NCBI RefSeq assembly: GCF_022662495.1
Contig: NZ_JAKPBU010000001.1
Coordinates: forward strand, 1,674,001 to 1,738,000
Length of the DNA: 64,000 nucleotides
Direction: 5' to 3'
Source: Lysobacter sp. M2-1
Lineage (GTDB): Bacteria; Pseudomonadota; Gammaproteobacteria; Xanthomonadales; Xanthomonadaceae
The notes below the pieces were generated by a model. The model saw only the letters and a program-made list of their open reading frames with translations, was not told the origin of the DNA and did no database searches. The position numbers and the translations under genes were made by a program. Below are positions 24,792-41,254 of the stretch, piece by piece. The stretch's first letter is position 1; every line of letters starts with the position of its first letter.

Positions 24792-24934
24792 TGTAGGAGC
24801 GCACCTGGGTGCGACCGCGGCTGCGATCAATGCCTCCGAACCGAATCCGTGTCCAAGCCCGCTGCGGCGGCGCGGGATGCGTCGCAACGGGGAAGGTACT
24901 CGCGGCGCGGTCGCGCCAAAGTGGCGCTCCTACA
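24792..24934. repeat. REP-like inverted repeat pair
   Basis: The left arm at 24792-24819 begins TGTAGGAGCGCACCTGGGTG. The right arm at 24906-24934 is the inverse (…AAAGTGGCGCTCCTACA), both ending in a shared GCGACCGCG core. The two copies face each other across ~86 bases. The element fills the gap between the VOC gene and the E2 gene, and its right edge touches the E2 stop region. It resembles the GTAGGAGCG-type repeats common in xanthomonads and pseudomonads. Confidence 0.75.
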
Positions 24935-26390
24935 TCGGCAATGCTAGATCGTCCAGCATCGCCTTGAGGAAGCGCGCAGCCTCGCCACCGGTGCAGGCGC
25001 GGTGGTCGAAGGTCAGCGACAGCGGGATCACGCGATGCGATTCGAAGCCGCCGATCACCGGAGTCATCTGGTGGCGGCCACGGCCGGCGGCGACGATCGC
25101 CACGCAAGGCGGCACCACGATCGGCGTCGCGTAGCGGCCGGCGAACATGCCGAAATTCGACAGCGAAATCGTGTAGCCGCTGAGTTCGCTGGCAGGGATG
25201 CTGCGATCCCCGACCTGCGCGCGCAGGCGATTCACCGCTTCGCGCACGCCGCGTGCGTCGAGCACGTCGGCATTGCGCAACGCCGGCACGAACAGGCCGT
25301 CGTCGGTGTCCACCGCAATGCCGATGTCGACGTGTGGGTGCAAGGTGCGGGTGAGTTTGTCGCCGTCGAACCAGGCGTTCAGCGCCGGCACCGCCTTGCA
25401 CGCGGCGACGATCGCACGCACCAGGCGCACGGTGACGTCGTTGCCGGGTGCCCATGCGTGGATGTCGGCGTCGTCGCTGAGCGTGGTGGCCACCACCTTG
25501 GCGTGCGCGTCGGCCATCACCCTGGCCATGTTGCGGCGCACGCCCTTGAGCTGCTCGGGCTGGCCGCTGACCGAGACGCCGGGCGGTTGCGTGCGCATCG
25601 GCTTGCCGCTGGCGGACAGCGCGGTGCGTTCGCGTTCGCTTTCCCTTCTCCCTCCGGGAGAAGGCGCCCGCAGGGCGGATGAGGGTTCGGATGAGGATGC
25701 AGCAGCACGATGCTCCGCACCCTCACCCCCGGCCACTCTCCCGGTGGGAGAGGGAAGCAGGGCGCTGGCTTCGCCCGAAGCGGCGCGCTTCACATCATCC
25801 ATCGTCACCACGCCGTCGCTGCCGCTGCCGCGCACCCGGGCGATGTCGACGCCCAACTTGCGCGCGGTCGCACGGACCGCGGGCATGGCCTTCACACCGC
25901 CCACTGCGACCGCGGCCTCGCTGCGCACCGCATCGGACGACTGCATCGCGCCCACCACGGTACCGCTGTCGCTGCGCTCGGTTTCGGCCTGCGCCTTCGG
26001 CGCGGGCTGACCGGTCTGCACGATTTCCCCGCCTTCGTCGGACGCGACCACCCGGTCGCCGTCGTCCGGCGCGGGCGTACCGGCACCATGCGATGGACCA
26101 TGGTGATGGCCGGTGTCCTGGCCCTCGGCACGCTGCGGCTGCTTGGGGTCGATTTCGAATTCGGCCAGCATCGCGCCGGTGACGATCACGTCCCCCGGAC
26201 CGCCGGCCAGCTTGAGCACCTTGCCCGAGACCGGCGAAGGCACCTCGACCACGGCCTTGGCGGTCTCCATCGACACCAGGTTCTCGTCCAGCCGGATCGT
26301 GTCGCCCTCCTTGACGAACCATTCGACGATGGTGGCGTCGGGCAGGCCTTCGCCGAGGTCGGGAAGCTTGAAGGTCTTCTTGTCGGCCAT
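24930..26390 (-). CDS. 2-oxoacid dehydrogenase E2 (dihydrolipoamide acyltransferase)
   Basis: A 486-residue E2 with one lipoyl domain (1-80; lipoyl Lys45 in METAKAVVEV), a long linker, a peripheral-subunit-binding domain (~168-203, AVRATARKLGVDIARVRGSG) and the acyltransferase domain (~278-486). The usual HxxxDG active-site motif reads HRACTGG (His463, Thr instead of Asp at 467). Residues ~212-250 are encoded by a palindromic repeat. It works with the E1alpha/E1beta encoded upstream; no E3 is present here. Branched-chain or pyruvate specificity cannot be decided from sequence. Confidence 0.9.
   Translation of the reverse strand: MADKKTFKLPDLGEGLPDATIVEWFVKEGDTIRLDENLVSMETAKAVVEVPSPVSGKVLKLAGGPGDVIVTGAMLAEFEIDPKQPQRAEGQDTGHHHGPSHGAGTPAPDDGDRVVASDEGGEIVQTGQPAPKAQAETERSDSGTVVGAMQSSDAVRSEAAVAVGGVKAMPAVRATARKLGVDIARVRGSGSDGVVTMDDVKRAASGEASALLPSPTGRVAGGEGAEHRAAASSSEPSSALRAPSPGGRRESERERTALSASGKPMRTQPPGVSVSGQPEQLKGVRRNMARVMADAHAKVVATTLSDDADIHAWAPGNDVTVRLVRAIVAACKAVPALNAWFDGDKLTRTLHPHVDIGIAVDTDDGLFVPALRNADVLDARGVREAVNRLRAQVGDRSIPASELSGYTISLSNFGMFAGRYATPIVVPPCVAIVAAGRGRHQMTPVIGGFESHRVIPLSLTFDHRACTGGEAARFLKAMLDDLALPM
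25641..25756. repeat. palindromic repeat pair inside the E2 coding sequence
   Basis: Two inverted copies of a CTCTCCC-nnn-GGGAGAG element occur here. The left one is CTTCTCCC-TCC-GGGAGAAG (25645-25663) and the right one CTCTCCC-GGT-GGGAGAG (25736-25752), each followed inward by a G-rich tail ending GAGGGT. The gene stays open through it. The same family flanks the DUF559 relic at 39.5-39.9 kb. Confidence 0.75.
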
Positions 26391-38422: not shown

Positions 38423-39529
38423 ATGAGCGCGCAACCCCGGACCGCCACCCCCAACCTGGGCATGCAGGTCACCACCTTCGAGAACCCGATGGGCATCGAC
38501 GGGTTCGAATTCGTCGAGTTCGCCGCACCCGAAGGCCAGGGCGAGGCGATGCACGATTATTTCCGGCGCATGGGCTTCAGCGCCGTCCTGCGCCACAGGA
38601 CGCGCCCGATCACCGTATACCGCCAGGGCGGAGTGAACTTCCTGCTCAACGAGGATCCGGACTCGTTCGCGGGCGATTTCGCCAAGGCGCATGGGCCGAG
38701 CGCCTGCGGCTTCGCGATCCGCTTCACCAAACCGGCCAGCGAGGTGTACGACATGGTGCTGGCGAACGGTGGCGAAGCGCCGGCGGGTCGGGTCGATACC
38801 AAGGCGGTCGACGCCCCGGTGGTCAACGGCATCGGCGACTGCATGCTCTACCTGGTCGACCGCTACGGCGACCGGGGATCGATGTACGAGGACTACCTGC
38901 CAGTGCAGGGTGCGGAATTGCATCCGCAGGGATTCGGCCTGACCTTCATCGACCACCTCACCCACAACCTGTACTTCGGCAACATGCAGAAGTGGTCGGA
39001 CTACTACGAGAAGCTGTTCAACTTCCGCGAGATCCGCTACTTCGACATCAAGGGCGCCAAGACCGGCCTGGTCTCCAAGGCGATGACCGCGCCCGACGGC
39101 ATCGTCCGCATCCCGCTGAACGAGTCGAGCGACCCGAAGAGCCAGATCAACGAATACCTCGACGCCTACAAGGGCGAGGGCATCCAGCACATCGCGCTGT
39201 TCACCGACGACATCTACGCCACGGTGGAGAAGATGCGCGAGCAGGGCATCGCCTTCCTCGACACGCCGGATGCGTATTTCGAGGTGATCGACCAGCGCGT
39301 GCCCGATCACGGCGAGGACGTGGCGCGTCTGGCCCGGAACAAGATCCTGATCGACGCCGACCCGGAGACCAAGCAGCGCAAGCTGCTGCAGATCTTCACC
39401 CAGAACGCGTTCGGCCCGATCTTTTTCGAGATCATCCAGCGCAAGGGCAACGAGGGCTTCGGCGAAGGCAACTTCCAGGCGCTGTTCGAGAGCATCGAAC
39501 GCGACCAGATCAAGCGCGGCGTGCTGTAG
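38423..39529 (+). CDS. hppD: 4-hydroxyphenylpyruvate dioxygenase
   Basis: A 368-residue Fe(II) enzyme that converts 4-hydroxyphenylpyruvate to homogentisate. It consists of two VOC-like halves. Iron ligands are His178 (FIDHLTHNLY), His256 (GIQHIALFTDD) and Glu336 (PIFFEIIQRKG); the C-terminal helix region NFQALFESIERDQI is typical. It is followed by hmgA, the next pathway enzyme, after a 345-bp repeat-bounded insertion. Confidence 0.96.
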   Translation: MSAQPRTATPNLGMQVTTFENPMGIDGFEFVEFAAPEGQGEAMHDYFRRMGFSAVLRHRTRPITVYRQGGVNFLLNEDPDSFAGDFAKAHGPSACGFAIRFTKPASEVYDMVLANGGEAPAGRVDTKAVDAPVVNGIGDCMLYLVDRYGDRGSMYEDYLPVQGAELHPQGFGLTFIDHLTHNLYFGNMQKWSDYYEKLFNFREIRYFDIKGAKTGLVSKAMTAPDGIVRIPLNESSDPKSQINEYLDAYKGEGIQHIALFTDDIYATVEKMREQGIAFLDTPDAYFEVIDQRVPDHGEDVARLARNKILIDADPETKQRKLLQIFTQNAFGPIFFEIIQRKGNEGFGEGNFQALFESIERDQIKRGVL

Positions 39530-39538
39530 GGTTTCTGG

Positions 39539-39573
39539 CCCCTCTCCCCTCGGGAGAGGGGCGGGGGAGAGGG
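39539..39573. repeat. 35-bp terminal inverted repeat, left copy
   Basis: CCCCTCTCCCCTCGGGAGAG plus a 15-base G-rich tail ending in GGAGAGGG. About 30 of 35 bases match the inverted copy at 39824-39858. Nine bases after the hppD stop. Confidence 0.75.
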
Positions 39574-39581
39574 TGCGGTAA

Positions 39582-39878
39582 GTGACGATCATCAAGCCGC
39601 CGCTGCCAACTCGTGCGCTGGCAAATGCACGCGACTTGCGACATGAGTCGACCGGTGCTGAGCGCAATCTTTGGCAGCATCTTCGGGCCGGGCGACTGGA
39701 TGGCAGGAAGTTCCGACGACAGCACCCTATGGGCTGGCGTGTCCTTCGCTTCTGGGATCATGATGCACTGGCACGTACTGAAGCCGTTTTCGACGCGATC
39801 TGGAAGGTCGTCGCTGCGCCGAACCCTCTCCCCAACCCCTCTCCCGTCGGAAGAGGGGCTTTAGAGCCGAGTCCATGA
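39582..39878 (+). pseudogene. internally deleted DUF559 (endonuclease-like) gene remnant
   Basis: The 98-residue frame begins (GTG 39582) like a DUF559 protein: NARDLRHESTGAERNLWQHL, RLDGRKFRRQHPMG. It then jumps straight to the C-terminal element [20 protein letters not shown]. The usual central part with the DFxC...ELDGxxH catalytic core, roughly 40 residues, is missing. The frame is still open, but the product should be inactive. It is bracketed by 35-bp inverted repeats, and its last bases overlap the hmgA start (ATGA). Confidence 0.75.
39824..39858. repeat. 35-bp terminal inverted repeat, right copy
   Basis: Inverted copy of 39539-39573. It ends 16 bases before the hmgA ATG, so it forms the leader of hmgA. 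Confidence 0.75.
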
Positions 39879-41254
39879 ACATCGTCACCGAAGACAACGT
39901 CATCCACATGCCGCAGCGCGACGCGCGCGGCGCCCACACCAGCTACATGAGCGGCTTCGGCAACGAGTTCGCTACCGAAGCGTTACCGGGCACGCTGCCG
40001 CAAGGGCAGAACTCGCCGCAGCGGGTGGCCCACGGGCTGTATGCCGAGCAGCTGTCCGGCACCGCCTTCACTGCACCGCGCAGCGAGAACCGGCGCAGCT
40101 GGCTGTACCGGATCCGGCCTGCAGCGATGCACGGCACCTTCGTGCCCTATGCGGACGAGCACACATCGGGAACGCCCGCAGCGCATCGCGCTTTCCACAA
40201 CGATTTCGGCGATGGTCCGGTCACGCCCGACCAGCTGCGCTGGGATCCGTTGCCGGTACCCGAGACGCGGGTCGATTTCATCGATGGTCTGTACACGATG
40301 GCCGGCAACGGTTCGCCCGCCGGTCAGCAGGGTGTGGGCATCCATCTGTATGCCGCCAGTCGCTCGATGGACGGGCGCTACTTTTACGATGCCGATGGCG
40401 AACTGCTGATCGTCCCGCAGCAGGGCCGGCTGCGTATCGCCACCGAGCTGGGCGTGCTGGATGTCGAACCCCAGGAAATCGCGGTGATTCCGCGCGGCAT
40501 CCGCTTCCGGGTCGAACTGCCCGACGGACCCTCGAGCGGCTACGTGTGCGAAAACTTCGGCGCCCTGATGCGGCTGCCGCAGCTGGGGCCGATCGGAAGC
40601 AACGGCCTGGCCAATCCGCGCGATTTCCTGACCCCGCATGCCGCATACGAGGATCTCGAAGGCGACTTCGAGCTCATCGCCAAGTTCCAGGGCCACCTGT
40701 GGCGCACGACCATCGACCATTCGCCGCTGGACGTGGTCGGCTGGCATGGCAACTACGCTCCGTACAAATACGACCTGCGCAGCTTCAATACCATCGGCTC
40801 GATCAGCTTCGACCATCCGGACCCGTCGATCTTCACCGTGCTGACCTCACCCAGCGATACGCCCGGCACCGCCAACCTGGACTTCGCCATCTTTCCGCCG
40901 CGCTGGCTGGTGGCGCAGCACAGCTTCCGCCCGCCGTGGTTCCACCGCAACGTGGCCAGCGAATTCATGGGCATCGTGCACGGCGTGTACGACGCCAAGG
41001 CCGAAGGCTTCGCCCCCGGCGGCTGCTCGCTGCACAACTGCATGAGCGGGCACGGCCCGGATGCGCAGACCTTCGACAAGGCCAGCCACGCCGACCTGTC
41101 GCAGCCGGATGTCATCCGCGACACGATGGCCTTCATGTTCGAGACGCGCGGTGCGCTCCGGCCCACGCAGCAGGCGCTCGATGCGGCGCACCGGCAGCGC
41201 GACTACCAGGCGTGCTGGGCGGGCTTGCAGAAGCGGTTCGTTGCGCCGGAGTGA
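39875..41254 (+). CDS. hmgA: homogentisate 1,2-dioxygenase
   Basis: A 459-residue Fe(II) enzyme that opens homogentisate to maleylacetoacetate. Recognised by [20 protein letters not shown] and [14 protein letters not shown] at the N-terminus, with [20 protein letters not shown] (iron-ligand region) and [15 protein letters not shown] in the C-terminal half. It follows hppD, separated by the DUF559 relic. Expression presumably depends on read-through from the hppD promoter; no new promoter was recognised. Confidence 0.96.

Follow-up and report, generated by a model that had tools for sequence, protein, structure and literature searches.

Genes for DUF559 proteins are paired with specific inverted repeats in bacteria from several phyla. 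These repeats also occur away from the genes, as dispersed solo and doublet copies, and units of a gene and its repeats are found in various stages of decay. We found no link between DUF559 and such repeats in the open-licence PMC literature that we searched. One decayed unit lies in the window, by which we mean the whole stretch of 64,000 nucleotides from Lysobacter sp. M2-1 that was analyzed. We consider it probable, though some way from certain, that the window holds a dead copy of a REP-like unit whose Vsr-type nuclease acts on its own repeat and spreads it.

A DUF559 relic between hppD and hmgA

The relic and its surroundings are listed in Table 1. The open reading frame matches the Pfam family DUF559 (PF04480) in two stretches with a score of 57.9 bits (E = 1e-15), which is above the gathering cut-off of 20.6 bits. 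When compared to a profile built from relatives (177 rows, of which one, L158, is misframed by a 5-nt offset), amino acids 14-51 of the relic correspond to positions 3-40 and amino acids 51-76 correspond to positions 80-105. Positions 41-79 are absent in frame, and these include D44, E55, D57, H61, D66, and R69. The first five of these residues (in the numbering of L013, the orthologue from Lysobacter spongiae) are each kept in 174-176 of the 177 rows, and all are deleted in the window copy. To judge from the Vsr fold, they are probably the active site. In a DNA alignment with four intact orthologues, the relic has a single central deletion and retains both ends of the gene and both repeats. 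Its C-terminus reads through the right repeat, and its stop codon overlaps the start codon of hmgA (ATGA, 39875-39878). Overall, Pfam, the profile, and the DNA alignment agree with an earlier note on this DNA, which had described a DUF559 relic that kept both ends and lost its catalytic core, and the window gene is the dead remnant of a small DUF559 nuclease gene. It is the only DUF559 match in the whole genome. The deletion left the frame open, and via the ATGA overlap this frame could couple translation of the relic to that of hmgA.

Table 1. Features at the hppD-hmgA site of the window (positions are those of the window).
Feature	Position	Strand	Basis
hppD, 4-hydroxyphenylpyruvate dioxygenase, left neighbor	38423..39529	+	ORF; Pfam Glyoxalase_5 HPPD N-terminal 186 bits
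Left repeat: hairpin CCCCTCTCCC-loop-GGGAGAGGGG and G-rich tail, triplex-motif architecture	39538..39578	+	inverted-repeat search
Relaxed triplex motif, left arm	39540..39573	+	
DUF559 relic ORF, 98 amino acids, GTG start, in-frame internal deletion	39582..39878	+	ORF list, Pfam, profile, DNA alignment
Surviving N-terminal part of the relic, profile positions 3-40	39621..39734	+	profile of relatives
Surviving C-terminal part of the relic, profile positions 80-105; deletion junction near left end	39732..39809	+	profile, DNA alignment
Right repeat, inverted copy of the left	39819..39859	-	inverted-repeat and motif searches
Relaxed triplex motif, right arm	39824..39857	-	
hmgA, homogentisate 1,2-dioxygenase, right neighbor	39875..41254	+	ORF; Pfam HgmA_N and HgmA_C

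The two arms are inverted and 85% complementary. They had been reported as 35-bp repeats and are slightly longer, at 41 nt. Within each arm, a hairpin precedes a G-rich tail, which the earlier note does not mention. If up to three mismatches are allowed, the arm motif has two matches in the window, both at the relic, and none in 100 shuffles of the window. (The reversed arm pattern was unusable as a control because it reads nearly identically backwards.) The whole genome has four sites, one of them with three mismatches, and two of the four flank the relic. The genome thus has few of these repeats, they are tied to DUF559, and they are not spread through the genome independently of it. In DNA folding, the left arm has a z score of -2.11, and its pyrimidine arm can pair with either purine run; the right arm also folds as a hairpin, with an energy that is not better than chance (z = -1.19).

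Elsewhere in the same genome, at C10:31175 (about 1490-1640 of L004), there is a gene-less inverted repeat pair whose inner letters resemble the window unit. It is flanked by what are, by eye, two 2-oxoacid dehydrogenase complex genes, and it is likely a stripped copy. Also, an inverted repeat doublet at 25640-25770 of the window combines a GGATGAGGG-type arm (by eye) with a triplex-motif arm. This doublet is inside a lipoyl acyltransferase gene (24930-26390, - strand), whose frame continues through it; the encoded residues are part of the linker that joins the E3-binding domain to the catalytic domain.

We found hmgA in 192 of the 198 family genomes that we searched, and in 7 of the 30 best loci a DUF559 match of full length lies immediately upstream of hmgA. 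DUF559 lies between hppD and hmgA at 17 of 90 family loci and at one locus (L212) from another family of the order. Intact orthologues occupy this site in several genera, all of them in the orientation of their neighbors, as judged by gene order and spacing. We used FastTree to place the relic among 176 proteins (177 rows, without L158; there are few columns and many forks are open), and it groups with 17 of the 18 same-site copies in a clade whose local support is 96. On this tree, just 3 changes of the site label suffice, versus 17.4 in shuffles. The best identity of the relic is 65%, to L062. (The protein alignments omit L188 and L200, which have stops in the gene.) The earlier note had proposed that a mobile cassette entered the tyrosine-degradation operon and decayed. 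The unit is indeed repeat-bounded and decayed, but a fresh insertion in this genome is ruled out because orthologues occupy the same site and the relic falls in their clade. Instead, DUF559 at hppD-hmgA appears to behave as a vertically inherited, long-term resident and not as a jumper.

To compare spacers between hppD and hmgA, we combined the 30 best hmgA loci, 30 loci from genus g28, and the same-site loci except L074, which ends before hppD (17 of 18); this gives 77 loci with one duplicate. Among the 76 distinct spacers, a set that is enriched for filled sites by the choice of loci, the repeat motif is present in 25 of the 25 with DUF559 and in 6 of the 51 without the gene (Fisher p = 9e-15). 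The six are decayed or stripped forms: the window relic, another remnant (L110), a repeat pair with the gene absent (L113), a right-hand arm that adjoins a repeat of another type (L350), one single repeat (L097), and one hairpin by itself (L363). Two further lone hairpins (L357 and L367) fall under the motif threshold. In genus g28, a match through the DUF559 gene was listed in only 2 of 52 genomes (G254 and G801). Clean empty sites, which the earlier note had suggested looking for, do exist among the relatives, and they are too diverged to read any target duplication. The hppD-hmgA site thus occurs in full, broken, stripped, and empty forms. The full-length copies are under purifying selection: their median dN/dS is 0.15, with a maximum of 0.25 (11 sequences, 34 of 55 pairs usable).

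Pairing of DUF559 genes with inverted repeats

DUF559 is present in 223 of 395 family genomes and in 145 of 398 Pseudomonadota genomes. In our flank test, the 250 nt to the left of a gene are compared with the reverse complement of the 250 nt to its right, and a score of at least 20 is a pass. Inverted flanks were found at 74 of 90 family loci (the 30 best loci and the next 60, with one contig-start match, G067:C20, omitted) versus 1 of 1115 shifted windows of the same loci; other controls passed in 371 of 2000 cases (mispaired flanks) and in 22 of 90 (direct orientation). For the Pseudomonadota, inverted flanks were found at 48 of 89 loci from 88 genomes, versus 2 of 863 shifted windows, 133 of 2000 mispaired flanks, and 29 of 89 loci in direct orientation. 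Matches in direct orientation are partly due to palindromic hairpins and repeat arrays. The third set comprises 80 named loci, of which 78 have flanks on both sides and 53 passed; with L308 removed (it has a run of N), this becomes 52 of 77, versus 0 of 365 shifted controls. The named loci that passed include records of metagenome bins that are named as Chloroflexi, Nitrospirae, Melainabacteria, and Omnitrophota. Overall, intact DUF559 genes elsewhere are bounded by the same kind of repeat, a C/G-rich hairpin with a tail, in all three sets, and the guess of an overlooked repeat-associated class was the strongest part of the earlier note.

By the flank test, no paired repeat was found at 16 of 90 family loci, 41 of 89 Pseudomonadota loci, and 25 of 77 named loci; the sets were ranked by DUF559 match, so weak or decayed copies are under-represented. 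For 69 family units, the median length is 451 bp (range 399-689). Among seven named copies, three (from A. lipoferum, S. meliloti, and Sphingomonas) have paired ends and four (E. coli KE47, A. brasilense, Sinorhizobium K101, and N. gonorrhoeae) do not by this test. The S. meliloti copy (L447, on pSymB of strain Ak57) is between inverted 114-nt doublets. A 2-kb query from this locus has matches in 150 plasmid records, mostly from Sinorhizobium and Rhizobium, many of them via the repeat alone and others via a neighboring IS. Within S. meliloti, a single plasmid record reaches 80% coverage of this query, and we found no within-species empty site there.

Each DUF559 gene usually has its own repeat type, with matching ends. 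In 12 genomes with two or three paralogues, a gene's own ends have a median score of 29.0 (27 genes), versus 10.5 across paralogues (36 comparisons). Weak own pairs (under 20) occur in 6 of the 27 genes, two of which, L057 and L089, score higher against the arm of a paralogue (26.0 and 21.0), and the paralogues of G205 and of G040 have a common repeat type.

We counted exact patterns of three repeat types (T1, T2, and T4) in 72 genomes, of which 51 have DUF559, 20 have no match to it, and one is the genome of the window itself. The 51 were chosen from genomes that had supplied the repeat types, so genus confounds the comparison of gene presence with repeat number. T1 was found in 43 of the 51 genomes with DUF559, in 1 of the 20 without (G044, 3 copies), and once in the window's genome; its maximum is 142 exact copies in one genome (G164). 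T2 was found in 15 of 51 and 0 of 20, and T4 was found in 20 of 51, in 1 of 20 (G035, 10 copies), and once in the window's genome. The repeats in G035 and G044 may be orphans after gene loss.

The association also holds if we begin with the repeats. Among the matches listed, we opened five repeat pairs with the spacing of a unit (386-445 nt, start to start), and all five hold DUF559, including four that were not previously known to. Four of these genes are full length and one (L326) is frameshifted near its start. L326, at about 959980 of G031:C1, lies between intact T2 ends, and its frameshift could be early decay or an assembly error.

Gene-less repeat doublets were found in both orientations. 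Seven opened loci from G094 (L337-L343) are similar gene-less pairs with a common interior; these units, of about 104-130 nt between T4 arms, have possibly multiplied recently. Solo palindromes without the tail, which might be empty targets, occur at 1-3 sites each in 19 of the 72 genomes, and this rarity weakens the idea that homing into such sites is the main route of spread. At L432, head-to-tail copies of a repeat unit lie beside a DUF559 gene and resemble a BIME array. One site of genus g28, L330, has accumulated DUF559 together with repeats and tandem arrays.

Triplex-motif layout of the repeats

Holder 2015 described an intrastrand triplex motif, formerly known as BoxC or PIT, that consists of a pyrimidine arm, a purine arm, and a second purine tail, and that occurs 3610 times in 262 proteobacterial genomes (PMC4666352). 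In the portion of that article available to us, no mobility-providing activities are reported around the motifs, the data do not support a stable triplex in vivo, and the terms DUF, endonuclease, and ycjD are absent from the main text (PMC4666352). The strict pattern, TM_ECO, is CCCTCNCCC N3-6 GGGNGAGGG N3 GGGNGAGGG with one mismatch allowed (PMC4666352). The relaxed pattern has a first loop of 2-10 nt, a second loop of 2-5 nt, and two mismatches.

The strict motif occurs within 300 nt of DUF559 at 17 of 90 family loci, 28 of 89 Pseudomonadota loci, and 25 of 79 named loci. In the three sets, its density per kb within 300 nt of DUF559 versus beyond 400 nt is 0.336 versus 0.0084, 0.899 versus 0.019, and 0.951 versus 0.031. 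For the relaxed motif, the corresponding densities are 1.53 versus 0.029, 1.80 versus 0.048, and 2.49 versus 0.074. The strict pattern, with its one mismatch, has no match in the window, whose arms fit the relaxed pattern only.

In 222 DUF559 arms from relatives, the tail fits the purine arm better as a mirror than directly in 140 cases, equally well in 75, and worse in 7 (for the 62 distinct arms: 40, 21, and 1). In this scoring, either A or T could stand opposite A, following the purine-motif triplex. Because the tail mirrors the purine arm across repeat types, what seems to be conserved is the layout and not the letters: the types differ in sequence and share a layout that is predicted to be triplex-capable. 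The DUF559-associated repeats are more than terminal repeats: they belong to a class that is known yet orphan, and they are dispersed as REP-like units. Like TM_ECO (BoxC, PIT), they combine a pyrimidine arm with a purine arm and a purine tail, and they are intergenic and dispersed and form inverted doublets (PMC4666352, in the portion available). Unlike TM_ECO, the window copies need a 4-nt second loop, and in other DUF559 repeat types this place is taken by a second hairpin or the letters differ. More broadly, we see the case as evenly balanced for the proposal that the BoxC/PIT/TM repeats and their relatives are the ends and the gene-less offspring of DUF559 units, which would be mobile and REP-like, and whose homing-type nucleases of the Vsr fold would each recognize a mirror-symmetric, triplex-capable repeat of their own type.

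The ycjD gene of E. coli K-12 is a DUF559 gene with two motifs on its 3' side (which differ from the relaxed pattern at 3 and 5 positions) and none on its other side within the stretch read. An 81-nt stretch adjoining the DUF559 copy of E. coli KE47 has matches in 5347 of the 5426 E. coli genomes, with a median of 14 matches per genome, and at least 80% of the ycjD region is covered in 3333 of the 5426. A clean within-species empty site was sought in E. coli and rejected: in the three ycjD-less chromosomes that we opened, the eefRABCD efflux operon (described in the part of PMC12817139 available to us) is there instead. Comparing L452-L454 to L451, ycjD and its repeats lie where eefRABCD lies in other lineages, with a deletion or replacement junction beside triplex repeats. 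In N. gonorrhoeae (L449), an array of triplex motifs on alternating strands, with a period of about 281 nt, is downstream of DUF559.

The nuclease and its proposed role in spreading the repeats

A structural model of the orthologue from Lysobacter spongiae (pLDDT 85.7, pTM 0.79) has as its nearest folds NGO0050 (PDB 3hrl, Z = 15.8), I-Bth0305I (PDB 3r3p, Z = 12.4), and Vsr (Z = 10.2). There are also matches to FASTKD4 and to chains of the mitochondrial ribosome (Z = 8.7-10.1); matches below Z = 8 were disregarded. In addition, our profile finds I-Bth0305I in PDB with E = 4.6e-5. The DUF559 protein is predicted to have the fold of Vsr and of the EDxHD homing endonuclease I-Bth0305I (reviewed in PMC3943268). 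It shares with I-Bth0305I the catalytic fold and a detectable sequence similarity, but the DUF559 units have no intron and are bounded by repeats, and the 126 residues that were modeled include no extra DNA-binding domain. NGO0050, E. coli YcjD, and Caulobacter VsrA belong to the same Pfam family by annotation or match, but we found no tie between these proteins and repeats in the open-licence PMC literature. According to the part of the VsrA report available to us, VsrA is required for the SOS response of scmA mutants, which lack the methyltransferase (PMC12907096). This result points to DNA damage by at least one DUF559 member; the authors' reading is mismatch repair that is tied to the methyltransferase (PMC12907096).

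In the reading that we prefer, a unit of about 450 bp consists of a gene, which encodes an EDxHD-type nuclease with the Vsr fold, and of two inverted flanking copies of the gene's own repeat; each copy is a pyrimidine/purine hairpin with a tail that mirrors the purine arm. The nuclease would recognize its cognate repeat as a duplex, hairpin, or triplex and cut there. Repair or copying across the break might then spread the repeats and, occasionally, the whole unit, much as RAYT transposases are thought to act on REPs or as homing endonucleases home. In the Lysobacter lineage, the nuclease would have lost its active site, leaving the genome with one DUF559 relic and few repeats. This reading is supported because the flanks are inverted, the ends match, repeats alone led us to genes, and gene and repeats co-occur at hppD-hmgA; and also because of the relic's clade, the purifying selection, the fold, the high copy numbers of the repeats, the gene-less doublets, and VsrA. 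It is weakened by the unpaired loci, the matches in direct orientation, the residency at one site, the VsrA authors' own interpretation, the repeats in G035 and G044, and the rarity of tail-less palindromes.

Some of these facts could instead mean that DUF559 is a host nuclease of a Vsr-like repair or restriction type, with repeats that are kept as targets or marks and that protect, regulate, or are processed; units would be inherited and lost, and none would be mobile. The long residence at hppD-hmgA, the dN/dS of 0.15, the Vsr fold, and the VsrA work (PMC12907096, in the part available) are as expected for such a nuclease. Many dispersed solo and doublet repeat copies, different repeat types among the paralogues of one genome, and patchy presence at single sites within a genus are not, and we think that this explanation is unlikely.

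DUF559 might also be mere cargo, in units that are moved by their repeat ends by another enzyme acting in trans. The gene-less doublets in similar copies, as seen with MITEs, would fit this, and we know of no nuclease of Vsr-type fold that is a complete transposase alone. We considered RAYT: RAYT-type genes (PF01797) are present in 37 of 48 genomes. We examined the flanks of 30 RAYT loci, of which 24 are from DUF559-bearing genomes and one is from the window's own genome (one locus, L215, was measured off its gene). None of the 30 resembles the DUF559 arm (the best score is 14.5), and ten have arms with the GTAGGAG head of GTAG REPs. The RAYT loci of the family have other ends, and a role for RAYT as the mover of the DUF559 repeats is unsupported. 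Against a passenger, we also count that all five opened pairs, which were picked by their spacing among the matches listed, held DUF559 and that each DUF559 gene usually has its own repeat type. Overall, we consider the cargo explanation to be quite improbable.

Finally, it is close to refuted that repeats and DUF559 merely gather in the same unstable intergenic DNA with no functional link, as the L330 site of genus g28 might suggest, given that the ends are paired, inverted, and type-matched, that controls in the same loci are near zero, and that all five opened pairs held the gene.

The preferred reading, of a nuclease that spreads its own repeat, resembles the REPtron. Both have a single gene between two inverted hairpin repeats, repeat types that are specific to the gene, and many dispersed solo and doublet copies (Nunvar 2010, PMC2817692; Di Nocera 2013, PMC3733652; both in the parts available). 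In contrast, the enzyme of the DUF559 system is a Vsr-fold nuclease and not an HUH tyrosine transposase, its repeats are of another class, and both systems exist side by side in one family. If this is true, then the DUF559 units would achieve the REP/RAYT arrangement a second time, with an unrelated enzyme.

Triplex-type repeats became known in E. coli in the 1990s, and by 2015 they had been described from hundreds of genomes; no function is assigned to them in the portion of PMC4666352 available to us. DUF559 is a common nuclease family. Our results suggest that DUF559 nucleases are the missing partner of this widespread family of orphan repeats. The pairing gives both a testable role, and it bears on what spreads the repeats, on what the nuclease recognizes, and on whether non-B DNA structure may be a recognition signal in the cell.
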